Notes under the pieces: generated by a model
What the model saw: the letters and a program-made list of their open reading frames with translations, nothing else
Database searches by the model: none
Told to the model about the DNA's origin: nothing
Shown here: in pieces, positions 19,729 to 44,690 of the stretch
Numbering within the stretch: position 1 is the first letter of the stretch
How the letters are laid out: each line of letters begins with the position of its first letter
Assembly: GCF_026210795.1 (NCBI RefSeq)
Contig: NC_089437.1
Location: 3,410,001-3,474,000, forward strand
Source of the DNA: Rhizophagus irregularis
Taxonomy: Eukaryota; Glomeromycota; Glomeromycetes; Glomerales; Glomeraceae
DNA: 64,000 nucleotides
Direction: 5' to 3'
Translations under genes and position numbers: made by a program

Positions 19729-20385
19729 ATGACTACTATACTACTATTCAAAAAGACTTAGTTTATTATTAAAGAAACCCCAGACAAACGATTCAGATTT
19801 AGTAATGAACTAATGCAGACAGGCTCGATAAACGAGATTCATCGTCCATTAAAAAATCAGATATATCAAGGAATCCGACATATCGAAAATAAATTTATTA
19901 TTTCATTATAATAATCCGTTCCAGACCCAATTCCAGGTTCCTTTGTATTTTTTCTGATAAATCTCTTATTATAAAAGATGGAAACCATATGCAGTAAAAT
20001 TATTATTAATTATTATTAAATTTTTTAAAATTCTTTTAAATATAGAAACAAAAAAACCTACCATGATGAATGTTTAGCTCCATTATACCGAACAATGTGC
20101 TCTAAATAATTAAAATCAAATTTTTCAAACTGTACATCTGGATACTTGAATATAAAAATGTCAAATGGAAACACTTAAACCAAATATAATATCATAAATC
20201 TATCAATCAAAATTTCAGAGTGTTTATCTTTAGTTAATTATTTTTCTTTCATTAGTGGATGGATCCTTATATAATTACAAAATATTGAATATTTAAAAAG
20301 AAATGGAGAACATCATGGTACTCAAAAAGTTAGAAAATATTGAAAGTGGAAACAGAAAGAAAAGTGTTTGAAATGATTATTCGTA
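19729..20385 (+). pseudogene. TKL-like kinase remnant 1
   Basis: The stretch aligns by eye with the first exon of the kinase at 15303. It has ATGACTACTATACTACTATTC (start), GACAAATCTCTTAC-like, CATGATGAATGTTTAGCTC (Cys motif), TCAAATTTTTCAAAC and CATGGTACTCAAAAAGTTAG (ATP lysine region). Many stops and shifts break it and the catalytic half is missing. Between 19850 and 19945 a CGATATATC/AATCCGTTCCAGACC-type sequence like the MITE at 60402 has been inserted. Confidence 0.6.
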
Positions 20386-20842
20386 AAATTATTTAAAATA
20401 ATCTAAAATTTCATTTATTATAAATAAAATGTTGTTTAACACTATGGTTTAACAAATTACTTTTAGATATATATTGTTTAAATTATATATATTATTTTTT
20501 TAGATTTCATTTATAAAAATTTATAACGTTATTTTTACCGACTATTATAGGGATAAATAAAATTTTACTTCGGAGTCGGAAACATGATCGGTCCATCATT
20601 TATCCGATTCTAGTAAAATTTTACTATTCCAGCAAAGGTAATTATTATAATATATAAAAATCCATAAAAAAAATTTTTTTTTTCCATTAAAAATCAACCT
20701 ATTCTATCTATTACCATATTAGGTTAGGATAAAATTCTATTTCGGATAAATCGGTAACCGTATCGTGTTACACTAACTAATGAGTTTACTAAATTTAAAT
20801 GACTCGGGGAACTCCTTAATAGAATGACTTTCACATTGTTAG

Positions 20843-20858
20843 CGGATAAAATTCGGCC
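20843..20858 (+). promoter_or_regulatory. Conserved promoter box of monooxygenase copy 1
   Basis: CGGATAAAATTCGGCC, 100 bp before the ATG. It is identical upstream of copies 2, 3 and 6 and is followed by a TATA-rich stretch (ATATATAAATATAATATATA). Identity between duplicated units could be inheritance rather than function. Confidence 0.5.
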
Positions 20859-20957
20859 TACGTTAAATATATAAATATAATATATATAGCTATACAGTAT
20901 GTATTCTATTATTTTTTCAAATGTCAAATGACAATTTATAATTTTTTTTTTTAAAAA

Positions 20958-22514
20958 ATGCAACAAAAAGTTCCAACTGTAATTATTATTGGTGCAGGTC
21001 TAGGAGGCCTTACTTTTTATCACGCTTTGATAAAGAATAAAGATAAAAAAGAATTCAAGGTAAAGATCTTTGAACGAGAATCTGGTCCTCAAGGTATACG
21101 TATAAATATACTGTGTAATCATTCTCTTAACATTTTTTGAAGAATTTACATAAACATTTGTTTACTTCTATGGTAAACTGAAAGATCGATGGCAAGGATA
21201 TCATATAGGAATAAACAATTATGGAGCTCGATCTCTTATAAATTGTATTCCTTCTTCGATCGCTTCAAACCTTCCAAAAGCGACACCAAATCCAATTCCT
21301 AATCTAGAATATCATGGATTTTCACTTGCCGATCATACGGGAAGTCTACTATTAAGACCTCCATCTAAACAAGTTAAAGATATTTACGAAGTCGCAAATT
21401 TAACCACTAGTTTTTCGATAATTATCACTTATCGTAATAGGCTTAGAGATGTTCTATTAGAAAATGTACCAGTTCAATGGGGTAAAAAATGTATTGGATA
21501 TGAGGAAACTGATGTTGGTGTTTGGGTACTTTTTGAAGATGGTTCGAAAGAATTTTGTGACATATTAGTTGGTGCAGATGGCGTCAATTCTCCGGGTAAG
21601 AAATTAATTAATAATAAAATAAATAAATAAAATATTTATCATTTAATAATTAATCTTAACTCTTTTATCTTTTTTTTAGTTCGAAAACAAAAATTACCAG
21701 AATTGCAAATTTTTGATTATGGAGTAACTATGATTATTACAGATGTAGCTGCACCTAAAAATCTCTTAGACAGATTGATTAAACTCAATGGAAACGGTAC
21801 ATTTCAAGAAACTGTTGGATTTAATGGAGATACTACGTTTATTATTTTCGTCGTATACCAATAGAACAAGAAAATTTTGAGAATAAAAATGAAACCTATT
21901 ATAGGGCGACAATAGCTTATGTATATCCAACTAAATTAGATGATAAACACGATGAACACAAAGTTGATGATGAAGATCTTGCATCTATCGTTAATCATGT
22001 AAAATATTATATTCGAAAATTAAGACCAGAATGCGAAATGACTAACATCGTATTGGAATTATGGGACTTAGTTCCTAAAATGACTCCTGATTCAAAAAAA
22101 TATCCATTTAAAACTTACAATCCTTTACGAAGAAGAAAGATGCGAGATATTGATCCGTTATCTATTAATACGTGGACGAATAGTAGAGTTACATTATTAG
22201 GAGATGCCGCTCATGCTACGAGTCCTGTATTAGGAATAGGAGCGAACAATGCTATTGAAGATGCTGAAACTCTTTCTAAAGCATTACTTAATTATTCTCC
22301 AGAGAATTATATTTCTTGTATTAAAGAATATGAAAATGAAATGTTAAAACGAAATTCCGCGGACGTGTTACGTTCTAGATTTATCGCATTAGGACAAGCT
22401 TCTCAAGTTGGATATATTAGTTCTATTTTTAGAAATAATTTTATTAGAATTATAAATTTTATCATGAATTTCTTTGATCTTAATTTTCTTTTTAGGAATG
22501 TTAGGAAGAACTAA
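20958..22514 (+). pseudogene. FAD-dependent monooxygenase copy 1, broken by one base
   Basis: Exons are 20958-21093, 21185-21595 and 21680-22514, as in the other copies. All three flavin motifs are present: GAGLGG near the start, GADGVNSP at the end of exon 2 and LLGDAAHATSP in exon 3. The frame breaks at about 21843-21848, where copy 2 has TTATTTTTCG and this copy TTATTTTCG; one T is missing and a stop follows within a few codons. Beyond it the frame reopens and is almost identical to copy 2. Either a young pseudogene or a homopolymer error in the assembly. Reading through, it would be a class A flavoprotein monooxygenase (PF01494 type) using NAD(P)H, FAD and O2. Confidence 0.75.
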
Positions 22515-23524
22515 TAGCCAAATATTTGCTTTATACGTGTTTTTTGTTCGCTTATCTTTATATCATGTACTGAATGTACTGAATTTACTATAGCTTTTTT
22601 ATAAAAAATGTATATATCTTTTTTTTACTTGAATGGAACATTTTAAATTAAGTATTGTGTTGTCGGTACAATTTATTAATATAGTCCCGTTATTGAACCA
22701 ATAATGTTTAAATCTCGAAAAATGAATAACTTTACTTCTCACATAAAAAAAAAAAAATTAGAATCCGTAACGTTTATTATTATTACTATTAATTTACTAT
22801 AATAAATAATAATTTTCTCGTTATAATATTTCAAATAGTTACTTCAAACCAAATCCTTGACAAAATAATAAAAAAATAAAATAAATAAAATCATTAAATT
22901 AATAATGTTTTTATTTTTTCCTCTCTAAGAAAAGGATCAAATCCACTACCATCAGTTTACTTGGTACTTCAATATTTTGTGGTATTACAACTTTTTCTAA
23001 TTTAAATTTTTTTTAGTTTATTCAGTTGTTTATTGTAGTTAAACAAAATCTGACCACGAAAAAAATGTAAATACTTGTACAATGCGCCATAGTAGGTTCA
23101 TCAGATATCCGTCGCGTCACAAGTTGATCTTTTTTTCAATTTGAAATTAGTTAAAACTCTAATGATGATGATAACTTCTAATTTGCGTGATGACTGAGCT
23201 TTATCAATTCCGTCAAGCGGTTGTGGTTAGATAAAAAAAAATGCTCTTTATTATTAACCGATTTTTGAAGTATGTCTTTTCACGCGAATGAACGATAATA
23301 TACAATATCATGGATAAAATTTTCTAGTTTAATTTTTAACTATTGAATAATTTTTTTTATCTGTATTTCTTTTTAAAAAAAATCATATTAATAATAATTT
23401 TCAGTTTATTCAATTATTAAACACTATCAAATCGACAAAGGAATGCGCGCTTACTAACAAAAGCACAATTAAATGTGTTAAACGTATGATTTGTGCAACT
23501 CGTAATAACGATATCTTTATTATT

Positions 23525-23905
23525 ATGGTTTCTATTCGATAAGACAGTTTTGTTGCAATTCATATATAGAAGAGCATCATATGCATTAACAAATTTTAAT
23601 ATACAAGATATTATAGACAAACATTTTACATTTTGAATTTATACATCAAACTATTATTGATGACAAATCTCTTACAACAGATAAAAAGTCATATCGATAT
23701 TGCAGTAAGAATATTAAATAAATATTTTGACAATTATAGTAAAATTCTTTTAAATAAAGGAACAAAAAAAAATTTTTTTGTGAAAATTGTCATGGTGAAT
23801 ATTTAATTAACTATTATACCGAATATTGCGTTCTAAATAATTAAATCAAATTTTCAAACCGGGCATCTAAGTAATTGAGTATAACAATGTCAAGTACTAT
23901 ATCAT
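23525..23905 (+). pseudogene. TKL-like kinase remnant 2
   Basis: The start ATGGTTTCTATTCG is followed by AGAGCATCATATGCATTAAC, GACAAATCTCTTACAACAG and GAAAATTGTCATGGTGAATA, matching exon 1 of the kinase at 15303 with many breaks. The sequence before it (GATTTGTGCAACTCG) matches the upstream of the intact kinase. The catalytic half is lost and replaced by the element at about 23920-24290. Confidence 0.6.
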
Positions 23906-23919
23906 CTAGCAGTCCACTA

Positions 23920-24290
23920 TATTTAGAAATTTGCTGTAATCGGTTAAATTAACCGGTTAAAATGCTGAAAATGTTTGTAATTCTGGCCAAATTTACAGTG
24001 CCGGCCAGAATTATAAATCACGGGACTTCGGATGCCAATGGTAGAATTTTTTGTGATATATAAAATTCATAATGCGGGCCGAAATTCATAGTGCAGGCAG
24101 ACAACTTTGGCCTGAATTTCGTCTTTCAGCTAGAGTTTCGTTTCGAATAGTTAGAGTTTTGAAAGTCTGGCCTAATTTTGGCCGGGATTAAAAATATATT
24201 TGATGCTAATCCCGGCCGAATTTTAATGCTGACTAGAATTGAGTTTTAACCAGTTAAGACTTTTTGGACCGGTTCCAACCTCTAGATTTG
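23920..24290. mobile_element. CCGG-rich foldback-like element
   Basis: TTAACCGGTTAAAATGCTGAA near the left and the inverse AACTGGTTAAAAC..GTCAGCAT-like near the right form imperfect inverted ends. The interior repeats TGGCC and CGGCC words (TTCTGGCCAAATTT, TTTGGCCGGGATT, ATCCCGGCCGAATTTT). The right end reads ACCGGTTCCAACCTCTAG. It is found only in this unit of the tandem array, so it is a later insertion. Confidence 0.4.
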
Positions 24291-24525
24291 ATAACCATGA
24301 TATTTCAAAACCAATGGTTAAAAAAAAAAATAGTTTCATTCAAATCGAAAAATACTGCGAAATATTCTTTTATTAGATTAAAAACCTCTTTGTTATGATC
24401 TATTTTTTTTTTGTCAGCATTTTCGGATAAATACGGTATGTGTTACATTAATTATGAGTTTCACTAACCTTAGAATTTCCTAAATAGAGTAAATTGCATG
24501 TCCATCACATTGGTAATCAGAATAT

Positions 24526-24541
24526 CGGATAAAATTCGGCC
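24526..24541 (+). promoter_or_regulatory. Conserved promoter box of monooxygenase copy 2
   Basis: CGGATAAAATTCGGCC 91 bp before the ATG, then GATATATATATTCTATCACTT and CGTCCCC, the most complete form of the shared module. Confidence 0.5.
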
Positions 24542-24616
24542 ATTTTAAGTTGATATATATATTCTATCACTTCGTCCCCTTTTAATCATATCATATTATA
24601 ATTTTTTTAAAAAAAA

Positions 24617-26333
24617 ATGCAAGAAAAAATTCCAACTGTAATTATTATTGGCGCAGGTCTAGGAGGCCTTACTTTTTATCACGCTTTGATAAAGAATAAA
24701 GATAAAAAAGAATTCTATGTAAAAATCTTTGAACGAGAATCTGGTCCTCAAGGTATACGTATAAATATACTGTGCACGGGCAGTGACATATATTAGTTAA
24801 TATTAGATCTTTTTAACCAATAATATTCAATTATACGTATAATACTAATTTTAACGATAGAAATGTTTAATTTTGTATTATGTAATATTTTGCTTAACCC
24901 CATACCCTAAAATATTAGCTAATATATGTCATGGCCCTAATCATTCTCTTAACATTTTTTAAGAATTTCATTTTTAAACACTTGTTTCTATGGTAAAACT
25001 GAAAGATCGATGGCAAGGATATCATATAGGGATAAACAATTATGGAGCTCGTTCTCTTATAAATTGTATTCCTTCTTCGATCGCTTCAAACCTTCCAAAA
25101 GCGACACCAAATCCAATTCCTAATCTAGAATATCATGGATTTTCACTCGCCGATCATACGGGAAGTCTACTGTTAAGACCTCCAACTAAACAAGTTAAAG
25201 ATATTTACGAAGTCGCAAATTCAAACTTTTCAATAATTATCGCTTATCGTGATAGGCTTAGAGATGTTCTATTAGAAAATGTACCAGTTCAATGGGGTAA
25301 AAAATGTATTGGATATGAAGAAACTGATTATGGTGTTTGGGTACTTTTTGAAGATGGTTCAAAAGAATTTTGTGACATATTAGTTGGTGCAGATGGCGTC
25401 AATTCTCCAGGTAAAAAATTAATAATTATAAAAAAATAAATAAAATACTTATTATTTAATAATTAATCTTATCTCTTTTATCTTTTTTTCTTAGTTCGAA
25501 AACAAAAATTACCAGAATTGCAAATTTTTGATTACGGAATAACTATGATTATTACAGATGTAGCCGTACCTAAAAATCTCTTAGACAGATTGATTAAACT
25601 CAATGGAAACGGTACATTTCAGGAAACTGTTGGGTTTAATGGAGATACTACGTTTATTATTTTTCGTCGTATTCCAATAGAACAAGAAAACTATGAGAAT
25701 AAAAATGAAACCTATTATAGGGCGACAATAGTTTATGGATATCCAACTAAATTAGATGATGAACATGATGAACACAAAGTTGATGATGAAGATCCTGCAT
25801 CTATCGTTAATCATATAAAATATTATATTCGAAAATTAAGACCAGAATGCGAAATGACTAACATCGTATTGGAATTATGGGACTTGGTTCCCAAAACGAC
25901 TCCTGATTCAAAAAAATATCCATTTAAAACTTACAATCCTTTACGAAGAAGAAAGATGCGGGATATTGATCCGTTATCTATTAATACATGGACGAGTAAT
26001 AGAGTTACATTATTAGGAGATGCCGCTCATGCTACAAGTCCTGTATTAGGAATAGGAGCGAACAATGCTATTGAAGATGCTGAAGTTCTTTCTAAAGCAT
26101 TACTTAATTATTCTCCAGAGAATTATATTTCTTGTATTAAAGAATATGAAAATGAAATGTTAAAACGAAATTCCGCGGACGTGCTACGTTCTAGGTCTAT
26201 CGCATTAAGACAAGCTTCTCAAGTTGGATATATTAGTTCTATTTTTAGAAATAATTTTCTTAGAATTTTAAATTTTATACTGAATTTCTTTGATCTTACT
26301 TTTCTTTTTAGGAATGTTAGGAAGAAGAACTAA
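24617..26333 (+). CDS. FAD-dependent monooxygenase copy 2, intact
   Basis: Exons are 24617-24752, 25006-25410 and 25495-26333, giving 459 residues. FAD-binding features of the class A monooxygenases are complete: GAGLGG at 12-17, the acidic residue of FERE near 39 that would hold the ribose, the DG motif (LVGADGVNSP near 175) and the GD motif (LLGDAAHATSP near 355). The C-terminus is a hydrophobic or amphipathic stretch (NNFLRILNFILNFFDLTFLF) that may bind a membrane. Such enzymes hydroxylate or epoxidise small, often aromatic, compounds; the substrate here is unknown. The first intron is 253 bp against 91-94 bp in copies 1 and 3, because of a MITE. The second acceptor (GAAAG before the ATCGATGG) is conserved in all copies and decides the reading. 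Confidence 0.85.
24778..24937. mobile_element. MITE inside intron 1 of monooxygenase copy 2
   Basis: About 160 bp absent from the matching introns of the other five copies. The ends are inverted repeats: GGGCAGTGACATATATTAGT on the left and, read inverted, GGGCCATGACATATATTAGC on the right, followed by TAATATT on both. There is no coding capacity. The exact target duplication is not clear; the empty site in copy 1 reads CTGTGTAATCATT. Confidence 0.75.
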
Positions 26334-27398
26334 TAGCCAAATATTTACTTTTATACATGTTTTTGTTCGCTTATCTTTATATGTACTGAATGTACTGAAT
26401 TTACTATATATATTTTATTATATTTTATATATTTTTAGCTTTTTATAAAAAAACATATATATATATATTTTTTACTTGAATGGAACATTTAAATTAAGTT
26501 TTGTGTTATCGTTACAATTTATTAATAAAATCCCGCTATTGAATCTAATAATTTTTAAATCTTGAAAAATGAATAACTTATAAAAAAAAAACAAATTAGA
26601 ATCCGTAACATTTTTTATTATTACTATAATAAATAATAATTTTCTCGTTATAATATTTCAAATAGTTTACTTCAAACCGAATCCTAGACAAAATAATAAA
26701 TAAATAAATAAATAAAATCATTAAATTATCTCTAATGTTTTACTTTTTCATCTCGCTCTAAGAAAAGGATCAAATCCACCACCATCAGTTCCAATGATAG
26801 ATAATTTGCTTGGAACTTCAATATTTTTGTGGTATTACAATTTTTCTCTAATAACTTAATTTTAAATTTTTTTTTTGTTTATTGTTTATTGTAGTTGGCC
26901 ACGAAAAAAGTTTCAAGATTCATCAGATATTCGCTGATCTTCCTTATTATTTTTTCAATTTTGAAATTAGTTAAAACTCCAATGATGATAATAACTTTTA
27001 ATTTGCGTGATGACTGAGCTTTATCAATTCCGTCAAGCGGTTGTGGTTAGATAAAAAAATGTTCTTTATTATTAACCGATTTTTGAAGTTTGTCTTTCCC
27101 CGATAATATACAATATGGAAAAAATTTTCTTGTTTAATTTTTAACTATTGAATGATTTTTTATCTGTATTTCTTTTTAAAAAAAAGCTTATACTAATAAT
27201 AATTTTCAGTTTATTCAATTATTAAACACTATCAAATCGATAAAGGAATGTGCCTTACTAACAAAAAAAAATAAATATTATCAAATCTTTTTACGATTGA
27301 GAATTGAGATGATCCAAATTCATGCAAAGAAGGTCGCACAATTAAATGTGTTAAACGTATGGTTTCGTAAAATATTTATCCAAAATTGAATTATTATT

Positions 27399-28085
27399 AT
27401 GGTTTCTATTCGAGAAGACAGCTTTTATTGCAATTCATATATAGAAGAGCATCATATGCATTAACAAATTTAATATACAAGATATTATAGACAAACATTT
27501 TGAATTTAGACATCGAACTATTATTGCTGACAAGTCTCTTACAAAAGATAAAAAGTCATATCGATATGCAGCAAAAATATTAAATAAAGATTTTGACAAT
27601 TATAATTTTTTGTGAAAATTGTCATGGTGAATATTTAACTATATTTACCGAACATTGTGTTCTAAATAATTAAACCAAATTTTCAAGCCGGGCAACTAGA
27701 TAATTGAGTATAACAATGTCAAATGGGAACATATAAATTGATTAGAATATTATCTATCAGTTCAAATTTCAGAACATCTATCGACCCATATAATTACAAA
27801 ATATTAAATATTTAAAAAGATATGGAGGGCATCATCAGTGGTACTCATAAGTATACATTGATATTATTTTTTTTTTTTTGATTTTTAAATTTTAGAATTT
27901 ATCTATATTTGTATAGTATTATTTTTATTGATTATTAATTAAAAGTATTTTGTATGAATTCCTATAAAAAGTAAGCACTTATTAAATAAAATTAATATAA
28001 TTTTAATAACACATTCATTATTTTATTACTTCTACTAGTTGAAGATTTGATAACAAAGATAATCATAATATTTCAAAATCAAAGT
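27399..28085 (+). pseudogene. TKL-like kinase remnant 3
   Basis: ATGGTTTCTATTCGAGAAGA starts a decayed copy of the kinase first exon (GAATTTAGACATCGAACTATT, GACAAGTCTCTTAC, GAAAATTGTCATGGTGAATA, ATAATTACAAAATATTAAAT). After a gap, 28040-28085 matches the fifth exon of the intact kinase (GTTGAAGATTTGATAACAAAG, ATATTTCAAAATCAAAG). The whole catalytic core between them has been lost. Confidence 0.65.
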
Positions 28086-28263
28086 ATTAGTGCGCAAATG
28101 GTTAAAAAGAAATAAATCGAAAAATACTGCGAAATATTATTCTATTATTATTTTTTTTTGTCAGTATTTTCGGATAAATACAGTATGTGTTACATTAATT
28201 AATGAGTTTCACTGACTAAGAATTTCCTTAAGTAGAAGTAAATCGTATGACCATCACAAATAT

Positions 28264-28279: not shown

Positions 28280-28410
28280 ATTTTGAGTTGATATATAATT
28301 CTCTCACTTCGTCTCCTTTAATTTTGATATCAAATTATAATTTTTTAAAAAATACCAAGTAAAAAATTAATAAAAAAGCAAAAGAATCAAATTATAATTT
28401 TTAAAAAAAA

Positions 28411-29952
28411 ATGCAACAAAAAATTCCAACTGTAATTATTATTGGTGCAGGTCTAGGAGGCCTTACTTTTTATCACGCTTTGATAAAGAATAAAGATAAA
28501 AAAGAATTCGACGTAAAAATCTTCGAACGAGAATCTGGTCCTCAAGGTATACGTATAAATATACTGTGTATTCATTCTCATAACATTTTTTTGAAGAATT
28601 TCACATAAACACTTGTTTACTTCTATGGTAAACCTAAAAGACCGATGGCAAGGATATCATATAGGCATAAACAATTATGGAGCTCGATCTCTTATAAATT
28701 GTATTTCCCCATCGATCGCTTTAAACCTTCCAAAAGCAATGCCAAATCCAATTCCTAATCTAGAATATCATGGATTTTCACTTGCCGATCATACAGGAAG
28801 TCTACTATTAAAACCTCCAACTAAACAAGTTAAAGATGTTTACGAAGTCGCAAATACAACCAATAGTTTATCGACAATTATTACTTATCGTGATAGGCTT
28901 AGAGATATTCTATTAGAAAATGTACCAGTTCAATGGGGTAAAAAATGTATTGGATATGAGGAAACTGATGATGGTGTTTGGGTACTTTTTGAAGATGGAT
29001 CGAAAGAATTTTGTGACATATTAGTTGGTGCAGATGGCGTCAATTCTCCAGGTAAAATAATAATAATAATAAAATAAATAAATAAAATACTTATCATTTA
29101 ATACTCTTTTATCTTTTTTTAGTTCGAAAACAAAAATTACCAGAATTGCAAATTTTTGATTACGGAATAACTATGATTATTGCGGATGTAGCCGCACCTA
29201 AAAACCTTTTAGACAGATTGATCAAACTCAATGGAAACGGTACATTTCAAGAAACTGTTGGATTTTATGGAGATACTACGTTTATTTTTTTTCGTCATAT
29301 TCCAATAGAACAAGAAAATTTTGAGAATAAAAATGAAACCTATTATAGAGCGACAATACTTTATGGATATCCAACTAAATTAGATGATGAACATGATGAA
29401 CACAAAGTTGATGATGAAGATTCTGCATCTGTCGTTAATCATGTAAAATATTATATTCGAAAATTAAGACCAAAATGCGAAATGACTAACATCGTATTGG
29501 AATTATGGGACTTGGTTCCCAAAACGACTCCTGATTCAAAAAAATATCCATTCAAAACTTATAATCCTGTACGAAGAAGAAAGATGCGAGATATTGATCC
29601 GTTATCTATTAATACATGGACGAGTAGTAGAGTTACATTATTAGGAGATGCCGCTCATGCTACAAGTCCTGTATTAGGAATAGGAGCGAACAATGCTATT
29701 GAAGATGCTGAAGTTCTTTCTAAAGCACTACTTAATTATTCTCCAGAGAATTATATTTCTTGTATTAAAGAATATGAAAATGAAATGTTAAAACGAAATT
29801 CCACGGATGTGCTACATTCTAGATCTATCGCATTAAGACAAGCTTCTCAAGTTGGATATATTGGTTCTATTTTTAGAAATAATTTTATGAGAATTGTAAA
29901 TTTTTTCATAAATTTCTTTGATCTTAATTTTCTTGTTAGAAAAACTAGCTAA
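28411..29952 (+). CDS. FAD-dependent monooxygenase copy 3, intact
   Basis: Exons are 28411-28546, 28641-29051 and 29123-29952, giving 458 residues. It is very close to copy 2 over all exons, with GAGLGG, GADGVNSP and LLGDAAHATSPVLGIG unchanged. Differences include TNSLSTIITY against NFSIIIAY in exon 2, NGDTTFIIFRR changed to YGDTTFIFFRH, and a shorter C-terminus (FFDLNFLVRKTS). With copies 1 and 2 it forms the subfamily that has the PDSKKYPFKTYNP insert before the RRRKM motif. It should have the same kind of activity as copy 2. Confidence 0.85.
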
Positions 29953-30389: not shown

Positions 30390-30570
30390 TTCTTGATGAA
30401 AAATCATATGCTATATGTATAATTTTTAATGCTATTATAAGATACTCTTAAATAAGTAACAAAAAAATTTGTATAAATTGTCATGATGAATGTTTATCTA
30501 CATTATACTGTGAACAAAATTATTTAATGGCAAATTTTTCAAACTCGGACATTTAACAACTGAGGTAGTT
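30390..30570 (+). pseudogene. TKL-like kinase remnant 4
   Basis: Only a short piece is left: GATGAAAAATCATATGC, TAAATTGTCATGATGAATGT and ACATTATACTGTGAAC (Cys motif region), then GGCAAATTTTTCAAACTCGG. The old promoter block (GAAACGTGATTTAGGGAT) lies about 70 bp before it. Confidence 0.5.
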
Positions 30571-32541: not shown

Positions 32542-34062
32542 ATGCAACAAAAAATTCCGACTATAATTATTGTTGGTGCAGGTCTAGGAGGCCTTACCCT
32601 TTATCACGCTTTGATAAAGAATAAAGATAAAAAAGAATTCAATGTAAAAATCTTTGATCGAGAATCCAGTCCTCAAGGTATACTGTATAATCATTTTCAT
32701 AATATTTTTTAAAAAATCACTCGACTAATTCGATCACTGATTTCTATATTAAAAACTAAAAGAACGATGGCAAGGATATCATATAGGCATAAACAATTAT
32801 GGTGCTCGATCTCTTATAAATTGTGTTCCTTCATCGATCGCTTTAAACCTTCCAAAAGCAATTCCAAATTCAGTTCCTAATATAGAATATCATGGATTTT
32901 CACTCTCCGACCATATGGGAAACCTGCTATTAAGACCTCCAACTAAACAAGCTAAAGATGTTTATGAAGTTGCAAATATATCCGTTGGTTATTCAATAAT
33001 TGTAACTTACCGTGATAAACTTAGACATGTTTTATTAGAAAATGTGCCAGTTCAATGGGGTAAAAAATGTATTAGATATGAAGAAACTGATGATGGTGTT
33101 TGGGTACTTTTTGAAGATGGTTCGAAAGAATTTTGTGATATTTTAGTTGGTGCAGATGGTATCAATTCTCCAGGTAATATATATATATACATATATATAC
33201 GCAACATTTGATTTTTTAATAATTAATTGTATTTCTTTTTCTTTTTCTTTTAGTTCGAAAACAAAAATTACCCGAATTACAAATTTTTGATTATGGAATA
33301 ACCATGATTGTTACAGATGTGGCCGTACCTAAAAATCTTATAGACAGATTAACTAAACTAAATGGAAACGGTACATTTCGGGGAACTCTTGGATTAAATG
33401 GAGAAGCTTCGGCTACTATTCTTCGTTTTATTCCAATAGAACAAAAAAATTATGAGGATAAAAGTGAACCTTATTATAGGACAACAATATTTTTTGAATA
33501 TCCATCTAAATTAGATGATGTTGAACATGATAAAATTAAAGTTGATGATAATGATCCTGCATCTGTTGTTGATCATGTTAAATATATGATTCGAAAATTA
33601 AGACCAGAATGTGAAATGACTGACATTTTGTTGGAACTATGGAATTTGGTTCCTAAAACGACTTCTAAAACTTACAATCCTGTACGAAGAAGAAAGATGC
33701 AAGATATTGATCCATTATCTGTTAATGCATGGACGAGTAATAGGATTACATTATTAGGAGATGCCGTTCATGCTACGAGTCCTGTATTATCATCAGGAGC
33801 AAATAATGCTATTCAAGATGCTGAAGTTCTTTCTAATGCATTACTTAATTATTCCCCAGAAAATTATATTTCTTGTATTAAAGAATATGAAAATGAAATG
33901 AAAAAACGAAGTTCCGCTGAAGTACTAAAATCTAGACATGTAGAATTAAAACAAACTTCTCCGGTTGGATATATTGGTTCTATTTTTAGAAATAATTCTA
34001 TAAGAGTTTCAAATTTTATCATGAATTTATTTGATTATAATTTTCTTGCTAGGAAGAATTAA
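32542..34062 (+). CDS. FAD-dependent monooxygenase copy 4, divergent active-site region
   Basis: Exons are 32542-32677, 32763-33173 and 33254-34062, giving 451 residues. GAGLGG and GADGINSP are intact. The GD motif is changed: LLGDAVHATSPVLSSGANNAIQDAE, where the other copies have GDAAHATSPVLG(I/L)GANNAIEDAE. This region contacts FAD, so activity or substrate may differ, though the key Gly-Asp stays. It belongs with copies 5 and 6 (SKLDDVEHDKIKVDDNDPAS in exon 3, no KKYPF insert). The upstream promoter module is more decayed than in copies 1-3 (AATTCGGCAAAATTTTACG near 32456). No breaks are seen. Confidence 0.8.
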
Positions 34063-34624
34063 ATTTTTACAATGTTATATATATATATATATTTATTTAT
34101 TTATTGTACTTTTAGCTTTTCCATATCATGAATAGAATAAAAAAAAAAAATTTTTTTTTTTCAAATGGATTATGATTTGATAACTTTGATACTAAATTAA
34201 TATATTAAAATATTATTTTTACAATCTATTAATAAATTTCGGCTGAGACACGGCGAATGTTTTAAATTAATTCAGATTAAGTGTGATTCTTTGTCTAAAC
34301 TTTTTTCGTGGTAAGATTTTATGTAAATTTTTTTTAATTTATTGCTCATGTGTGCATATATGTTAATTTTTTTGTATTATATCACGATCGTTCATAAGTT
34401 TTCTTTCATGTCAAACTCGCAGTTCTACAGTGACATTTGAAACGTGATTTAGGGAATCAAATAACACATGATGTTATGATAGTCGAATTTAAATTGTTTT
34501 TACTAAAATTTTGTGAAACAAACTTCGGAATTAAATTTTAAAATTCTAAAATTCTTAAAAATTTTCTTAATCGAGTTTCACGCTTAAATTTCATTTTTAA
34601 CAAAAAATTATATTTCACACATTA

Positions 34625-35230
34625 CGACTACTATTCGGGAAGACTTTGTAGTATTTATTGCAATGGATCGATTAACAGACTATAATATTGAAAATACTAC
34701 CTAAATTTTCAACTTCAAAATTTTTTCATCATTTTAGATTAGACGTTGCATATTGCACTACTTGCAAACTTCTTTTTCGAATTTTTCTTCACAACCTCTT
34801 CTGAAATGTTCGCGATGAATTTATAAAACGAAATATTCTTGCGACAAATCTCTTACAAAAGATGAAAATCTTATGAATAAAACATTAAATTAAAATTTTA
34901 ATAAAGAATATGATAAAAATTGTCATGATGAAATGTTTAGCTACATTAGATCAAATTTTTCAAATTGGACATCTGGAAATAATGATTTTGATAATTAATG
35001 CAAAAATGTTAAATAAAATCACTACTGTAAGAATAGTAGAATTGATCCAAAACAATAATTGATAAAATAGGACCTCGAGCAATAGAAACTAACTTATTAG
35101 CTCTACGTTCCAGGGCAAGAATTGCGTAATGCCGCCCGGAATTATCCCAAAAAGGAATGATCTACACACATATAGGTCCTTACAAAATATTAAACACTTA
35201 ACTAAAGGTAGACATTTTATATCTGTAAAG
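34625..35230 (+). pseudogene. TKL-like kinase remnant 5
   Basis: It contains CGACTACTATTCGGGAAGAC (start, ATG lost), GACAAATCTCTTACAAAAG, AATTGTCATGATGAAATG, TTTTTCAAATTGGACATC and TGGAAATAATGATTTTGATA, matching kinase exon 1, then CTTAACTAAAGGTAG from the glycine-loop region. It is heavily broken and includes a foreign stretch at about 34700-34800. Confidence 0.55.
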
Positions 35231-35337
35231 TAACCAACGTGTTAAACCAATTATATTAGAAGCCAATCACGTATATTAGAACAATTCCGATATATCTCCG
35301 ATATATCGAAGTTTATTACATAAAATTCATATCATTA

Positions 35338-35575
35338 TCCCATCGGTATTATGTATACACCGATGGATTTTTTTGTAAATTATTCCACCGGTATAAAAAA
35401 GTATAAAAAAGTATAAAATCCATCGGTGTATACGCCATACACAATGAGATAAACCTGTTATTCCATGGGTATCTAATAAATACTCCATATACACCGATGC
35501 TCCCCTCCCTTCGGGGGGGCCCCCAAGACATCGGTGAATATTTCAGTTATTCATTGATACCCATGGAATAACAAG
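35338..35575. repeat. Foldback element with 17-bp perfect inverted repeat
   Basis: GTTATTCCATGGGTATC at 35457-35473 is repeated exactly inverted at 35556-35572. ATCGGTG- or CACCGAT-type words with TGTATAC occur at least five times between 35340 and 35536. A C-run/G-run hairpin (CCCTCCCTTCGGGGGGG) sits near the centre of the right half. The region looks like a compact, strongly self-complementary non-coding element. Confidence 0.55.
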
Positions 35576-35901
35576 TATATATTTGAATATATTTGAATTA
35601 AATAAATTAAAGGTCATGGTTAGTCCTCAAATATCATATGATTAGTGAATTTATCATGTGATTTTATTAGTCAATAAATTGTACAAATTAATTGTTTCGT
35701 ATTCTATTAATACATTTCTCATTAATACATTATCCTACTCTATTAATACATTCGTTTTATCCATACATTCTAATTAATATCTCCAAGCCCCAACCAATTA
35801 TTCCAAACCAAAGTTAAATATTTTGTTCCTAGTTAAAGTAATAAAGTTCGTTAATATAAAAAATAACAGGGTATGTAAAACAGATACAACAATTACTACC
35901 T

Positions 35902-36410
35902 TCAATTTTTCTGATAGTGCCCGACTTTCCCACATTTTTTGCAATGTCGTTGATTCATGATTTAGGTTTACAAGCTTTAGTAGATGACTTAAATCTTTTA
36001 GTTCCTAACGGTCATCTTTTATCACATTTTTTTTCGGATTTTCGTGACATTTGGTACCAAAGGGTCAATATGAGTTTATCATTTATTTCATCTTCTTGAT
36101 TAATTTCATTCAATTCTTCTGAATCTGATTTCCCAACTTCTGTAAATTCTTGTAACAATTCAATAAGCTGTTCCGAGTTAGAATTAGATCGTAAAGCTTT
36201 GTTAGTTTGTTACTGTGAGAACAGATATACGTATGACGACGGACAATGTCCTTCTCGCGACTTACACGATCTTTAATGATCTGAAACCCTTGTTGTTTAG
36301 CCTAACCATCTATAAAGACTTTGCAACCTTCACATAATTGAAATTTCTTTCCTGAATATAATAGTACATGTTCGTCCTTATTAGACAAGATCGATTCGTC
36401 ACAATCATCT
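35902..36410 (-). mobile_element. MULE (FAR1-type) transposon remnant with internal deletion
   Basis: On the minus strand the 5' part reads as a FAR1-like DNA-binding domain: FQLCEGCKVFIDG, then AKQQGFQIIKDRVSREKD and IVRRHTYICSH. The 3' part reads as the usual C-terminus of these transposases, a basic stretch (TKRFKSSTKACKPKS) and a zinc knuckle CKKCGKVGHYQKN whose last Cys is a stop codon. The catalytic MULE domain that should lie between is missing, and stops interrupt the rest. So this is a dead, internally deleted copy of a plain DNA transposon, inserted upstream of monooxygenase copy 5. It helps to explain the longer spacing of that unit. Confidence 0.6.
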
Positions 36411-38380
36411 AAAAAGGTAAAATAAATAAAATAAAATAAAAAGAAGGGTTAGAAATGATAACCCAAAAGCATCTAGTATTCTAATCCTTCACCCTCCTTA
36501 CCCTAACCTCCCAACCCTAACCTAATCCTCCAGACCAACACCACTCTAGAGACAACGCACCTAACCTAAACCAATTCCCATTATCCTGACCCTAAGCTAT
36601 TCCAAAGCCAATACCACTATAAAAGCCAACGTTACTTTAAAGCCAACATTACTTTACCTAATTACATATCATGAGCAAATCCCAAAAGATGAATATTTTC
36701 GAATTCTTCTTACATAAGGTAGGTTTACGTTAAAGGGAAAAAAATAAATGAAAATAGGTATTGTTTATTAAAGAAAGTAAAAGTAAAAATAATGAGAGAG
36801 AAAGTAAACGTGGGAACGTGGTCGACTTGATAATCGAAAAGTCTAAATCTCATGACTACTACGTAAATCATGTGATAAATAATAGGGACTAGCGACAAAT
36901 CGCATCCGCGATAAATAAATAATTTTAATAATTTTCTAAATTAAATAAAAATTTTCATATATTAAAGTTTTGATTTATATAATAATTAGATTTTTAAAAT
37001 AAATTCTCTAATAAAATTCAAAATTTTATAATTTAGATATTTTTTAAAAAATGACTAAGGAGATTTTCTATTAAAAATTTGAAATTAAATGTCATTGATA
37101 AATATTTATTAAGTTGTTGAGTAGCATAAAAAAAATTTACGTTTAATACTATGTAAAATGTAAACAATAATGAACTGAGACATATAAAAGTTAAATCAAT
37201 AATGAATTAAAAATTTTTTTTTTATTTAAAAGCATCTGACGTAGAGAATGAAATTAAATTTCGATAGGAATCATCGCGTTTGTGGCAGTTTATTGTATAT
37301 GTGTATATTTTCATACGTATGTGTCGTTGAGTCAAATTTTTTATGTATGCTCGATGTGTTCAATAAAAATAAAAAAAAATTTTTTTTTTTAATTATTAAC
37401 CCTATAGAAAATTTTCTGTGAAAACCCGATAAACGATCATTTTCTAATTTTTATCTCAAAAAAAACTCCATGTGATCAATTCTCTAAATAATTTTTATAG
37501 GTAAGATAATTTTTTGATGGTGCAATTTAATATAGGTATTAAAAATCAATCAGTAAAGTTCATAATTATTCTGGCTTGCGTTATAATAATTTTGGCCAGT
37601 ACATTTTATTTATCACCTCAGTATGTTACATAGGATTCAACACTTCTCTATGAAAGCAGATCGTGAACCCATTTTTCCAAAATATCCAATCGTCATCGTT
37701 CAGCCCAATAGGATCATGCAGATTTTCATAGACCGATATTTTTATTAGGTATGGGCGTATGGCAATAACACATGATTGATATAATAAAGTGGAGTAAAGA
37801 AATATGGTGTAAATGAATATTTTCTAGGAAAAGTTTAAATAAAGCTTATAAAGTGGATTAAAAAAATAGCATTTATAGAAAGCTTATGATCAAAACGTCA
37901 GAACAATAAATGTGTAGCTATATCGGTCACAGGGACCTTCATTGATTGGTGAAAATGCCACTACGTGACCCATTTTCATCCAATAATTTGGTCCTGTGCT
38001 ACTCCCTCATCCAATTATAATTTTTTATTTTAGTACTATTTAAATTAATTATATCACGTATAAATTTCTCAAAAAGGAAATCCATTATTTCATTTTTGGA
38101 TATTAAATTACTATTAAGATATCGATCAAAAATAAAATTTAAATATTATTAAGCAATAAATACATCACAATTTTTTTTTTCATTTAAAATTGAAAAGTAC
38201 TAGTACGCTATATTCTATTGACCCATTTCGGATAAAATTTTCCAGTAACGTATAAACTGATTAATGGGCGTGACAATCATGTCCAAAAGGCCAATATTTT
38301 GCGTTGAATATATATATATTCTATCATTTCGTCTCATTTAAGCTCCAATTTTTTTATCTGATATCAAATAATTTTTAAAA
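36411..38380. other. Gene-free spacer before copy 5
   Basis: No gene is visible. At 36478-36620 the plus strand is C-rich with CCTTACCCTAACCTCC and CCAACCCTAACCTAAT, words that recall telomere repeats but are not regular. From 36930 to 38140 the sequence matches, with decay, 41100-42000 before copy 6 (for example AAAATTCAAAATTTTATAAT, AAAGCATCTGACGTA, CTATGAAAGCAGATCGT), so both are upstream parts of a duplicated unit. Confidence 0.45.
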
Positions 38381-39913
38381 ATGCAGCAACAAAAAGTTCC
38401 AACTGTAATTATTATTGGTGCAGGTCTAGGAGGCCTTACTCTTTATCACGCTTTGATTAAGAATAAAGATAAAAAAGAATTCAATGTAAAAATCTTTGAT
38501 CGAGAATTCAGCCCTCAAGGTATACATAAGTATGCAGTACGTTTTCATAATGTTTTTTAAAGAATCACTCGACTAACTCGAACACTTTTTTCTATGCAAA
38601 AACTGAAAGCTCGATGGCAAGGATATCATATAGCCATAAACAATTTTGGAGCTCGATCTCTTATAAATTGTATTCCTTCATCTATCGCTTTAAACCTTTC
38701 AAAAGCAATACCAAATCCAGTTCTTAATGTGGAATATCATGGACTTTCACTCACCGATCATACAGGAAATCTATTATTAAGACCTCCAGATAAACAAGTT
38801 AAAGATGTTTTCGAAGCTGCAAATTTATCTGTCGGTTCTTCAATAATTATAACTTACCGTGATAAACTTAGACATGTTCTATTAGAAAATGTACCAGTTC
38901 AATGGGGTAAAAAATGCATTAGTTATGAAGAAACTGATGATGGTGTTTGGATACTTTTTGAAGATGGTTCGAAAGAATTTTGTGATATTTTAGTCGGTGC
39001 AGATGGTATCAATTCTCCAGGTAAAAAAGTAAATAAATTAATATCATTTATTTCAATTAATAATTAGTTTATTTCTTTACTATCTCTTTTAGTTCGAAAA
39101 CAAAAATTACCAAAATTGCAAATTTTTGATTATGGAATAACCATAATTGTTACAGATGTGGCCGCACCTAAAAATCTTTTAGACAGATTAATTACTAAAT
39201 TCAATGGAAAAGGTGTAACTCAATCTGTTGGATTAAATGGAGAAACTTCGGTTACTATTTTTCGTCTTATTCCAATAGAGCAAGAAAATTATGAGAATAA
39301 AAATGAATCTTATTATAGAACAACAATATTTTTTGAATATCCATCTAAATTAGATGATGTTGAACATGATAAAATTAAAGTTGATGATAATGATCCTGCA
39401 TCTGTTGTCGATCATGTTAAATATATGATTCGAAAATTAAGACCAGAATGTGAGTTAACTAACGTTATATTGGAATTATGGGACTTAGCCGTTCCTAAAA
39501 CGACTTCTGATCCATCTAAAACTTACAATCCTATACGAAGAAGAAAGATGCAAGATATTGATCCATTATCTGTTAATACATGGACGAGTAATAGAATTAC
39601 ATTATTAGGAGATGCCGCTCATACTACGAGTCCTGTATTAGGATTAGGAGCGAATAATGCTATTGAAGATGCTGAAGTTCTTTCTCGAGCATTACTTAAT
39701 TATTCTTCAGAAAATTATATTTCTTGTATTAAAGAATATGAAAATGAAATGAGAAAACGAAATTCCACCGAAGTACTAAAATCTAGATTTGTCGAGATAA
39801 GAAACACTACTCCAGTTGGATATATTGGTTGTCTTTTTAGAAATAATTTGTTGAGAATTATAAATACTATTATGAATTTCTTTAATTATAACTTACTTGC
39901 TAGGAATGGTTAA
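38381..39913 (+). CDS. FAD-dependent monooxygenase copy 5, intact
   Basis: Exons are 38381-38519, 38610-39020 and 39093-39913, giving 456 residues. One extra Gln codon follows the start (MQQQKVP). GAGLGG, GADGINSP and LLGDAAHTTSPVLGLG are present, with Thr in place of Ala after the His. It is nearest to copy 6 (KFNGKGVTQSVGLNGETS, RNTTPVGYIGCLFRNN). Exon 3 has a Val-Pro insertion at LWDLAVPKTT. The upstream region keeps TTGAATATATATATATTC and TATCATTTCGTCTC, but the CGGATAAAATTCGGCC box is decayed. A (TA)n run of about 30 bp follows the gene at 39964. Confidence 0.85.
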
Positions 39914-39954
39914 ATATTTACAATTAAATTTATTATGCATATTTTATCATTTCT

Positions 39955-39962
39955 TTAATATA

Positions 39963-39998
<36 letters not shown>

Positions 39999-40060
39999 TA
40001 TTTATTTATTTATTTATTGTATAATATATATTTTTTTTTTTTTAAAAAAAAATATTTTTT
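39955..40060. repeat. TA dinucleotide run and T/A homopolymers
   Basis: About 30 bp of TA repeats, then TTTATTTATTTATTTATT and runs of T and A, in the 3' flank of monooxygenase copy 5. Similar tracts follow copies 2, 4 and 6. Confidence 0.7.
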
Positions 40061-40449
40061 TCGATTATATTTCATTTTGATATTAAATAAATACATTAAA
40101 TTTCAATTTATTAATAAATTCCAAATTCCAATCCAAAGATGCGACGAAGTTTGATGATGTAGTGAGAGAGGATGCTTGACGGGTACATATTCCTTAAAAT
40201 TTTTGTTTAATTTATTATTTATACGTGCATATACAGTATGTTGGCTATTAGTTATCATATCACGATTGGTCATACGAGTTTTTTTTACGCCAATTTGCTG
40301 CTTTACAGTTTTGAATATTTTTCAAAGTACTCCTCAATTTGACACGTGATTTAGGATTCAATAACACGTGATATTGTGAAACAAGTCCAGACTCCAGAGT
40401 TAATTATTTTCTATATTTAAAATTTAATTCAATAAATTTTTATAACATC

Positions 40450-40930
40450 ATGACTAGCTACTTACTATTCGAAAAGATTTAATTACAGCTGCACTTGATA
40501 GAGCATATGCATTAACATATTATAATATTCAGGATATCTTAGAGGCTTAGACAACCGATTTGAATTTAGACAACGAACAGTCAACGAACTATTCTTGCTC
40601 TTACAAAAGATGAAAAAATCATATGAAGTAAAATTATTAAATAAGATTTTGACGATTATAAACTTTTTTTTTAATGAAAAACAAAAAGAATATGATAAAT
40701 TTTCATGATGAATATTTAGCTAGAGATCAATAAAAATCAAATTTTTCAAACTGGATAAACACTAAGAATAGTAGGGTGGCCCCTAATTTGCAAACATTTA
40801 CACATAACTAAAGGTAGAGGTTCCGAAATTTATGCATGATGTTATTCATAAAATTATTTAATAATAAATTCTTCTTTAATTTTGTAGACTAAATCTCGTT
40901 TATCTATAATAAGTAACAAACGAGGACAAG
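40450..40930 (+). pseudogene. TKL-like kinase remnant 6
   Basis: ATGACTAGC, CTATTCGAAAAGATTTAAT, TAGAGCATATGCATTAACA, GAATTTAGACAACGAAC and TTTCATGATGAATATTTAG match exon 1 of the intact kinase. CTAAATCTCGTTTATCTATA, near 40890, matches the start of its second exon. It is heavily broken. The promoter block with GACACGTGATTTAGGATTC lies about 100 bp upstream. Confidence 0.6.
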
Positions 40931-42407
40931 TTATTAAATGTTATAGTTAAACAAAAAAACCCATTGGTTGTAATATACAATGAAATTCGATAAATCGGAT
41001 CCTCTGAGATTGGGCCTAAACAGGACATTTTTTTTTCACGTATATTGGAACAATTTCGATATATCGAAGTTTATTATATAAAATTCATATCAATATTTGT
41101 AAATATTTACATACAATAAAGTTTTTGATTATATGATATAACCAAGATTAAAGTTTTGATCTGATTTTCGATTTTCAAATTTAACGTCCTTCGACGACGT
41201 TGTCAAAGAACGAAAACCAGACATATAAAATTAGATTTCAAATTTTTTTGATAATTGATATATTCGGATTTAAAAATAGATTCTCTAATTAAAATTCAAA
41301 ATTTTATAATTTAGATGAGTCACCTGCATCAAAAGTTGGGAATGATCGATTTAATAGCTAATACTAATTTAATATGATATATAACTAATATAAATCGGTG
41401 TGTTTAATTCGATATGTCAATATTATGATTAATATATAGATTTTTAAAGAAACAGGAGACTTTTATCTTAAAAATTGAATGTCAGTATGTACTCAATTTC
41501 ATTTTAATACCAGTAAACCTGAACCAGAATAGTAAAAGATAAAAAGAATCAAAATAAAAAAGTTAAATCAATAATAAAGTTAAAAATTAAAAATCGAAAT
41601 TTTTTATTTAAGAGCATCAGACGTAAAGAATGAATATAAATTTTTTTTTTTAGTTTCTTATAATTATTAATTGATAAATAAAATAATTATTATAACGCGA
41701 GCAGAATTATTTATCACTCGACTGGCCGTACACCATTTTATCATGCTCATCGTCCCCGTATCACTATGAAAGCAGATCGTAATCAGTAATCACCAGTTTG
41801 TTAATAATAATATTGAATTTTTATTTAGTACATTTTTTTTTCGACAAAAAAGCTCACGCAAATGTATGTTATGCGGTATAAAATAGTATGGTGACACGGT
41901 ATTAGAAGATAGTATTTGCGTCAAAGACTTACTATATCACGTATGATTTTCTCAAAAAGGAAATCCGCTACTTCTTTTTGGCTATTAAATTACCTATCAA
42001 CAGTACACAATTGTTTTTTTATTTGAATATAAAAAACCTAATCCAAATCAATTTCATTCAATAAATATGCACCAACGTTTTTTGGAAAAACTTTCTTTTT
42101 TTAAGCTTGCAATAGTGGTTTTGACTTTACATATTTTAAATAAAATACATGCAGTATAATGAACTACTTTATAAATTACTGGTTTCAGGTCTATTCAAAT
42201 AATGAAAAAAAAATCCTCTACAATGGCTTAAAATTATTAATTATTTTTATTTTTCGGTTAAAATTGAAAAAATACTGCGTTATATTCTATTATTAGGTAT
42301 TTTGACCCACTTCGGATAAAATTTTCCGGTAGCTTATGTTCAAATTAATGAACGGAATTTCTTAACAGAAAATATGTTGCATGACAATAATGCCAAAGGA
42401 AAAATAC
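40931..42407. other. Gene-free spacer before copy 6
   Basis: No gene is visible. TTTCGATATATCGAAG near 41050 is like one near 35285. The rest corresponds to the spacer before copy 5 (see 36411-38380), in decayed form. Confidence 0.4.
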
Positions 42408-42423
42408 CGGATAAAATTCGGCC
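42408..42423 (+). promoter_or_regulatory. Conserved promoter box of monooxygenase copy 6
   Basis: CGGATAAAATTCGGCC 107 bp before the ATG, then AAATATATATATTTTATCAC and TTCGTCTCC. It is the same as in copies 1-3 although the coding part belongs to the other subfamily. Confidence 0.5.
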
Positions 42424-42514
42424 AATATATTACGTCAAATATATATATTTTATCACTTCGTCTCCAATTCATCTTGTCTGATATCAAATTGTAATTAAAA
42501 TAATTTTTTTAAAA

Positions 42515-44046
42515 ATGCAACAAAAAATTCCAACTGTAATTATTATCGGTGCAGGTCTAGGAGGCCTTACTCTTTATCATGCTTTGATTAAGAATAAAGA
42601 TAAAAAAGAATTCAACGTGAAAATCTTCGAACGAGAATCCGGCCCTCAAGGTATACACATAAGTATACTATATAATTTTTTCATAATATTTTTTAACAAC
42701 TAACTTGAATACTTCTTCCATGTAAAAATTGAAAGCTCGATGGCAAGGATATCATATAGGCATAAACAAATTTGGAGCTCGATCTCTTATAAATTGTATT
42801 CCTTCATCGATCGCTTTAAACCTTCCAAAAGCAATGCCAAATCCAGTTTTTAATGTAGAATATCATGGATTTTCACTCACCGATCATACAGGAAATCTAC
42901 TATTAAGACCTCCAACTAAACAAGTTAAAGATGTTTACGAAGTTGCAAATTTATCTGTCGGTTCTTCAATAATTATAACTTGTCGTGATAAACTTAGAGA
43001 TGTTCTATTAGAAAATGTACCAGTTCAATGGGGTAAAAAATGTATTAGATATGAAGAAACTGATGATGGTGTTTGGGTACTTTTTGAAGATGGTTCAAAA
43101 GAATTTTGTGATATATTAGTTGGTGCAGATGGTATCAATTCTCCAGGTAAAAAAATAATAAATTAATATCATTTATTTCTTTTAATTTCAATTAATAATT
43201 ATTTTATTTCTTTTACTATCTCTTTTAGTTCGAAAACAAAAATTACCAGAATTGCAAATTTTTGATTATGGATCAACCATGGTAATTGCAAATGTGGATG
43301 CACCTAAAAATCTTTTAGACAGATTAATTACTAAATTCAATGGAAAAGGTATAATTCAATCTGTTGGATTAAATGGAGAAACTACGGTCACTCTTTTTCG
43401 TCTTATTCCAATAGAGAAAGAAAATTATAAGAATAAAAATGAATCTTATTATAGAGCAACAATATTTTTTGAATATCCATCTAAATTAGATGATGTTGAA
43501 CATGATAAAATTAAAGTTGATGATAATGATCCTGCATCTGTTGTCGATCATGTTAAATATATGATTCGAAAATTAAGACCAGAATGTGAGTTAACTAACG
43601 TTATATTGGAACTATGGGACTTAGTTCCTAAAACGACTTCTGATCCATCTAAAACTTACAATCCTATACGAAGAAGAAAGATGCAAGATATTGACCCATT
43701 ATCTGTTAATACATGGACGAGTAATAGAATTACATTATTGGGAGATGCCGCTCATGCTATGAGTCCTGTATTAGGATTAGGAGCGAATAATGCTATTGAA
43801 GATGCTGAAGTTCTTTCTCGAGCATTACTTAATTATTCTTCAGAAAATTATATTTCTTGTATTAAAGAATATGAAAATGATATGTTAAAACGAAGTTCCG
43901 CTGACGTACTAAAATCTCGATTTGTTGAGATAAGAAACACTACTCCAGTTGGATATATTGGTTGTTTTTTTAGAAATAATATGTTGAGAATTACAAATGC
44001 TATTATGAAATTTTTCGATTATAACTTACTTGACAGAAAGGATTAA
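42515..44046 (+). CDS. FAD-dependent monooxygenase copy 6, intact
   Basis: Exons are 42515-42650, 42736-43146 and 43229-44046, giving 454 residues. GAGLGG, GADGINSP and LLGDAAHAMSPVLGLG are present. It differs from copy 5 at the start of exon 3 (FDYGSTMVIANVDAPK against FDYGITIIVTDVAAPK), a segment that in this family lies near the substrate pocket. The C-terminus (MLRITNAIMKFFDYNLL) keeps the amphipathic character. It is the last copy of the array; a chimeric kinase remnant follows. Confidence 0.85.
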
Positions 44047-44355
44047 ATATATAATGTAAATTTATTATACATATTTATAATATATAGTATTTATTTATTT
44101 ATTATATATATAATATATTGCTTTTTCATAATACATCAAATCTTGCTGTTACAATCTATTAATAAATTCTGACCTGAGATGCGACTAATGTTTGAATCTT
44201 TAATTTATTATTTATACGTGCACATACGGTATGTTGGTTAATCCCGACGAGTTTTTTACGCTGAAAAAAATTAACACGTGATTTAGGAATTCAATAACAC
44301 ATGACGAAAACAGTAAATTTTTAAATCCTTAAAATTTAATTTATTATTTTTTTTT

Positions 44356-44690
44356 GTCTGACTATTCGAAAAGATTTAATTTTGTTTGCAATGGATAGAG
44401 TATATGTGGAGAACTTTCCTTATATTTATTTCACTGAAGTTATTTCTGGAAAAGGAATTTCTTTTGTATCCGATATTTATAATATTGGCATACTTATGTG
44501 GGAAATTTCATCTGGACATCCACCATTTATTAATAAACATAATTATGATCTGCGATAAGAATAATAAGACCAAAAATAATACCCAATGTTTTGGGTGCAG
44601 ATCGCTGGTATTGTAATCTTTCCGGAAGAATAAATGATTGCCAAAAAGAAAATAATGAACAGATAAATTCCATTATAAATCCTTTCGTTT
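44356..44690 (+). pseudogene. TKL-like kinase remnant 7, N-terminus joined to C-lobe
   Basis: It starts like the kinase first exon (CTATTCGAAAAGATTTAAT, GCAATGGATAGAG). Within 40 bp it jumps to the C-lobe: a decayed PYIAPEV-like stretch, then EVISGKGIS, ISSGHPPFINKHNYD and RPKIIPNVLGAD in two frames. So the whole N-lobe and catalytic loop were lost by one internal deletion. An open stretch of 76 codons from 44386 is not in the kinase frame. The old promoter block is seen at about 44275. Confidence 0.6.

Follow-up and report, generated by a model that had tools for sequence, protein, structure and literature searches.

Introduction

In the portions of the literature available to us, to which all statements from cited papers in this text are limited, PF07714 is given as the most frequent motif in expanded and species-specific genes of Rhizophagus irregularis (PMC6123716), the kinase repertoire of this fungus is put at 2,533 members (PMC10234402), and kinase expansion with occasional tandem arrays has already been published for it (PMC6123716, PMC8647823, PMC10234402). 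Here we describe a tandem array on contig C9 of R. irregularis, lying within a 64-kb stretch (C9 3410001-3474000; hereafter the window), in which six genes for FAD monooxygenases (M1 to M6) are interspersed with seven relics (R0 to R6) of a TKL-like kinase gene. Besides the six units in the array, an M4-like unit is present on chromosome C7. The array very probably arose by head-to-tail duplication, in rounds, of a two-gene block in which a class A flavoprotein monooxygenase gene precedes a TKL-like kinase gene.

The locus differs from the tandem duplicate arrays of arbuscular mycorrhizal fungi in having a two-gene unit, of which one gene is dead and the other kept. A longer kinase copy upstream of the array (K0) carries the same PF07714 domain as the expanded TKL-like kinases of R. 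irregularis, whereas the kinase copies inside the array are broken and travel as passengers with another gene family. We found no description of the array in the literature searched, which included the available portions of PMC6123716, PMC5982333, PMC11075540, PMC8647823 and PMC10234402. The array is a well-supported new case of a known kind of gene-family growth, of modest surprise, and is instructive but ordinary. Its interest lies in being a readable record of such growth in an arbuscular mycorrhizal fungus, in which a block appears to have been copied in rounds.

Organization of the array

The genome searched comprised 146,748,485 bases in 32 contigs. A self-BLAST of the window detected same-strand collinear matches among all six monooxygenase genes, which lie head to tail, and the main gene-to-gene pieces were 81.9-91.9% alike over 1.36-2.44 kb. 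Units 1 and 2 were collinear from end to end, through gene, spacer, kinase relic and next 5' flank; the other units were collinear in the monooxygenase gene, the short flanks and the relic position, and all six lie on one strand. A profile built from four kinase copies was then used in an nhmmer search of the window, with the reversed window as a control. Kinase relics were detected at seven positions, before M1 and after every monooxygenase gene, all on the + strand (Table 1). The reversed window gave no match to the profile at E values up to 1, no relics were present on the - strand of the window, and the sole match outside K0 and the relics was a marginal one at 50578-50632 (E 0.0067). An earlier note, made from the letters of this DNA, had described six FAD monooxygenase genes of like exon design in a head-to-tail series, with a decayed TKL-like kinase before the first and after each. 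The series was borne out by the self-BLAST and by scripted splicing, and the kinase pieces were found in 7 of 7 positions; the collinear diagonals that the note proposed to seek by self-comparison were present, throughout in the case of units 1 and 2.

Table 1. Positions in the window of the array components, the upstream kinase and the dispersed repeats
Feature	Position	Strand	Details
M1, FAD monooxygenase	20958..22514	+	exons 20958-21093, 21185-21595, from 21680; end taken from second open piece; exon-3 frame broken
M2, FAD monooxygenase	24617..26333	+	exons 24617-24752, 25006-25410, 25495-26333; 459 aa
M3, FAD monooxygenase	28411..29952	+	exons 28411-28546, 28641-29051, 29123-29952; 458 aa
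M4, FAD monooxygenase	32542..34062	+	exons 32542-32677, 32763-33173, 33254-34062; 451 aa
M5, FAD monooxygenase	38381..39913	+	exons 38381-38519, 38610-39020, 39093-39913; 456 aa
M6, FAD monooxygenase	42515..44046	+	exons 42515-42650, 42736-43146, 43229-44046; 454 aa
R0, kinase relic before M1	19948..20358	+	profile 169-631; nhmmer E 1.7e-41; 14-nt deletion in common with R1 and R2
R1, kinase relic after M1	23514..23894	+	profile 43-411; nhmmer E 1.7e-49
R2, kinase relic after M2	27378..27819	+	profile 33-487; nhmmer E 2.4e-55; 90% identity to R1 over 345 columns
R3, kinase relic after M3	30395..30552	+	profile 195-369; nhmmer E 4.7e-19
R4, kinase relic after M4	34587..35216	+	three pieces, profile 12-498; nhmmer E 1.8e-4, 1.5e-30 and 0.0066; last piece (35169-35216) marginal
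R5, kinase relic after M5	40464..40962	+	profile 60-514 and 670-790; nhmmer E 3.2e-48 and 9.7e-10
R6, kinase relic after M6	44358..44583	+	about 49 nt of kinase 5' end (blastn), directly followed by kinase-domain piece, profile 1041-1236; nhmmer E 1.5e-34
K0, kinase (PK_Tyr_Ser-Thr)	15268..16836	+	longest kinase copy in window; PF07714 E 1.5e-33
Dispersed repeat between R1 and M2	23937..24284		query 475-822 matches many places on other chromosomes; best 40 of 306 candidates
MITE-like short dispersed repeat with inverted ends, in M2 intron 1	24778..24937		intron lengthened to 253 nt; best 40 of 87 candidate places
M4-M5 spacer repeats	35335..36934		35335-35584, many copies; 35621-36934, one long match on C24 and partial ones; best 40 of 749 candidates
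Third M4-M5 spacer repeat	37689-38056		several copies; best 40 of 749 candidates

A series of this kind, or the broken M1 gene, could in part be an artefact of assembly. The exon-3 T-run of M1 is one T shorter than that of M2, which results in an early stop, and this frame break is perhaps artefactual because the assembly of R. irregularis DAOM197198 is nanopore-based, at about Q36 after polishing (PMC10234402). The exons of the array copies differ by 4-14% and the units carry private repeats, neither of which is expected from repeated assembly of one unit, and an artefactual array is extremely unlikely. For M1 alone, the missing T may be either real or an assembly error.

Monooxygenase genes

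Splicing by script gave three exons and two phase-1 introns in every copy, so the intron loss of a retrocopy array was not found in any of the six. The identical exon design pointed out in the earlier note holds for the six genes but was also present in all three of the outside relatives that were modelled, and hence exon design is no evidence for the array. Five of the six copies (M2 to M6) have open frames of 451-459 aa. A full scan with Pfam PF01494 (FAD_binding_3; cut-off 22) covered M2 and M6, which both passed (53.3 bits, E 3.4e-14, and 59.6 bits, E 4.2e-16, respectively), with the best stretch confined to the C-terminal part of the profile. The motif GAGLGG was present in six translations, and LVGADG[VI]NSPVR and LLGDA[AV]H were detected in all six, M1 being read as two pieces. 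These match what we take to be the GxGxxG, DG and GD motifs of class A flavoprotein monooxygenases. The nearest solved chain to M2 was 4hb9 ('Similarities with probable monooxygenase'; E 1.6e-32, matched over two stretches within residues 9-404). The genes share the domain and the three usual motifs with the class A enzymes, but M6 reached no NCBIfam cut-off among the best 25 of 55 rows (106.9 bits for the first row, against a cut-off of 365), and therefore the substrate class cannot be named. Our guess is that the enzyme probably oxidizes a small molecule within the cell, in a reaction dependent on NAD(P)H and FAD. The lineage-specific gain suggested in the earlier note, and its suggestion of detoxification or of a signalling compound, are candidate readings.

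A GY codon model gave an omega of 0.210 over eight members of the family, and dN was lower than dS in 28 of 28 pairs of these eight genes. The same was seen in each of the 15 pairs within the array, with omega values of 0.34-0.63. Copies in the array and on C7 were separated by a dS of 0.09-0.29 among themselves and of 0.34-0.49 from copies on C11 and C13. The five open monooxygenase genes are under purifying selection, and their being kept by selection supports a function without saying which. They are good candidates for comparisons of copy number or expression across isolates and plant hosts. Diversifying selection at alignment codons 201-240 was considered and rejected: the ratio of nonsynonymous to synonymous changes was 35:16 there and 190.5:147.5 elsewhere over four independent pairs, a difference that was not significant (p 0.13).

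Kinase relics and their relation to the monooxygenase genes

R0 to R5 are portions of the 5' half of the kinase gene, R5 extending further. The kinase start motif was located 316 to 1073 nt past the monooxygenase stop codon in R1, R2, R4, R5 and R6, and that part is absent from R0 and R3. A frame-breaking deletion of 14 nt occupied identical columns in R0, R1 and R2, and an insertion of 10 nt was common to R1 and R2; indels to the right of about column 400 were not counted for the relic on C7, which resembles R4 only up to about 34882. The deletion common to R0, R1 and R2 indicates that the kinase was already dead before those copies were made, and so dates its loss relative to the later copies.

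A tree of the monooxygenases was built from 19 sequences, namely the six array copies and 13 of 20 outside loci that were fetched. The topology was ((M1,M2),M3),((M4,C7),(M5,M6)), with supports of 98.1/99 for M1/M2, 100/100 for M1-M3, 98.7/100 for M4/C7, 100/100 for M5/M6, 93.1/88 for M4-M6 with C7 and 100/100 for the array with C7. In the relic comparisons, kinases were represented by K0, L051, L052 and L041. Two pairs in the relic tree, R1/R2 and R4/C7 relic, each had a support of 100/100 and were the same as in the monooxygenase tree. R4 and the C7 relic were 84.9% identical over 284 columns. They also share about 100 nt that are unlike the kinases; with shortened kinases this stretch aligned to kinase letters, so that its boundaries are alignment dependent. 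The ages of genes and relics agree, since an R1-R2 identity of 0.90 stands beside a dS of 0.089 for M1-M2, and an R4-C7 relic identity of 0.849 beside a dS of 0.134 for M4-C7. The proposal of the earlier note that the repeated unit contained two genes was supported by these matching pairs and by the end-to-end collinearity of units 1 and 2.

Several results weigh against a shared history of the two genes in every unit. The R5/R6 pair parallels M5/M6 but weakly, the overlap being 49 nt only, and R6 was too short for the tree. The grouping of R0 with R3 was weak (33.9/55) and the placement of R5 moderate (96.2/72). The relics were not recovered as a single clade: R4 and the C7 relic stood apart, with surrounding supports of 0/64 and 89.7/51, and in a separate relic tree R4 joined the other relics at a support of 57 only. 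R0-R2 shared 19 of 23 derived states; R4 had fewer in common with other relics, for example 8 of 22 with R2 and 10 of 31 with R5. The spacers after M3 to M6 aligned in fragments only. R0 precedes M1 and yet has the deletion of R1 and R2; apart from the six genes, no monooxygenase piece was detected in the window at E values up to 1, for example before R0, and without one the left edge of the array is unexplained. For R0, R3 and R6 and in the spacers after M3 to M6, the two-gene case is carried by position and strand.

Some of these results would also be expected if the monooxygenase alone had been amplified and the kinase pieces had come independently, from a family that is everywhere in the genome. 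A first look at the N-terminal part of the kinase gave 4351 candidates genome-wide, of which 150 were scored, and with a family this common single kinase neighbours mean little. A kinase was present somewhere in the fetched stretch at 5 of the 20 unlinked monooxygenase loci, and the failure of the relics to group as one clade is also in line with separate arrivals. Such arrivals do not account well for relics that lie on the same strand and in the same place at 7 of 7 positions, for a frame-breaking deletion common to three of them, or for relic pairs that mirror the gene pairs. Among the 20 unlinked loci, that on C7 alone had a kinase relic on the same strand no more than 1.2 kb downstream of the monooxygenase gene. 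Independent arrival is therefore unlikely, and duplication of the two genes as one block is the preferred explanation.

The C7 copy and the monooxygenase family elsewhere

At least 64 exon-level matches to the monooxygenase family were detected genome-wide. Outside C9 the better matches were single or paired, and a looser group, consisting mostly of broken pieces, was located on C16 at 2.80-2.87 Mb. The similarity of the C7 locus to the M4 unit extended past the gene in both directions, at window positions 31567-31951, 32537-34274 and 34577-34882.

The presence of a unit on another chromosome raised the question of carriage by a transposon, for example one resembling a Pack-MULE, that had picked up the monooxygenase gene with a piece of the kinase, in which case the array and the C7 copy would be insertions. 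Mutator-like elements have been reported near expanded gene families in R. irregularis (PMC8647823). The surroundings of the M4 unit and of its C7 copy, however, gave no convincing terminal inverted repeats, the pairs detected being short, AT-rich and 70-90% complementary, and a head-to-tail order in which neighbours are most alike fits unequal exchange better than a transposon. Carriage of this kind is very unlikely.

Two distant kinases in opposite orientation flank the C7 copy (L032, C7:900900-910400). At C7:887632-888072, some 17 kb from the monooxygenase on that chromosome, short matches to the M1-R1 spacer and to R5 were observed together and are perhaps a further relic of the unit. A scan of bacterial contigs gave one weak relative of the monooxygenase, in a Chryseobacterium record (28% identity), among the 587 stretches listed, which says nothing on origin.

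Proposed history of the array

Under block duplication, a first round would have separated the lineage of M1-M3 from that of M4-M6, with later copies arising within each. The M4-like unit now on C7 would have been made by copying in either direction. The reading frame of the kinase would have been lost before the later rounds, and the dead kinase then copied as a passenger. The monooxygenase has been kept by selection. Repeats and deletions may have worn the relics down further. We infer that unequal crossing over was the mechanism of duplication and that the unit had the order monooxygenase then kinase. The upstream flank of the kinase was presumably copied along, as seen in one spacer.

A further possibility is that monooxygenase and kinase formerly worked as a pair, and that the seven sense-oriented relics are still transcribed and give rise to small RNAs that quiet the large intact kinase family. 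The array would then do two jobs; we give this idea a minimal chance.

The kinase at 15.3 kb

The earlier note had placed a better-preserved kinase, starting at 15303, at the head of the series. K0 is the longest of the kinase copies in this window but is disrupted near its start, having one extra A about 20 nt past the ATG at 15303 (15303-15325) compared with kinases L051 and L052, which are open there. Thirty sites distinguish K0 from two close kinases, and R0 to R5 were scored at each of them. The K0 state and the other state were found at 3 and 12 sites in R0, 3 and 11 in R1, 3 and 15 in R2, 2 and 6 in R3, and 5 and 11 in R5; R4 was an exception, with the K0 state at 10 sites and the other state at 7. 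The M1-R1 spacer, the sole spacer so searched, matched the flank just 5' of a kinase at C9:3392340, 33 kb upstream of K0, and no match to K0 was among the matches listed. K0 as the source of the relics was unsupported by the site states for R0, R1, R2, R3 and R5 and by the M1-R1 spacer, while R4 leans to K0. On these sequence comparisons K0 is a relative and is not supported as head of the series.

Repeats and other features of the window

Much of the long M4-M5 spacer, and part of that between R1 and M2, is accounted for by the dispersed repeats (Table 1). To the right of the array, a repeat of about 0.68 kb was present twice in tandem at 46724-48085 (88.8%). Other chromosomes also carry it in tandem, and partial copies lie next to genes of the monooxygenase family on C4 and C6. 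Diverged direct repeats (66-79%) were observed to the left of the array, at 5705-6720 and 7934-8434, and a palindrome at 62747-62954, roughly 200 nt long, matched its own reverse complement at 71-73%. Approximately 12 kb past the array, at 55783-57350, two reading frames matched Glyoxal_oxid_N (E 4.9e-43) and GO-like_E_set (E 2.6e-18).

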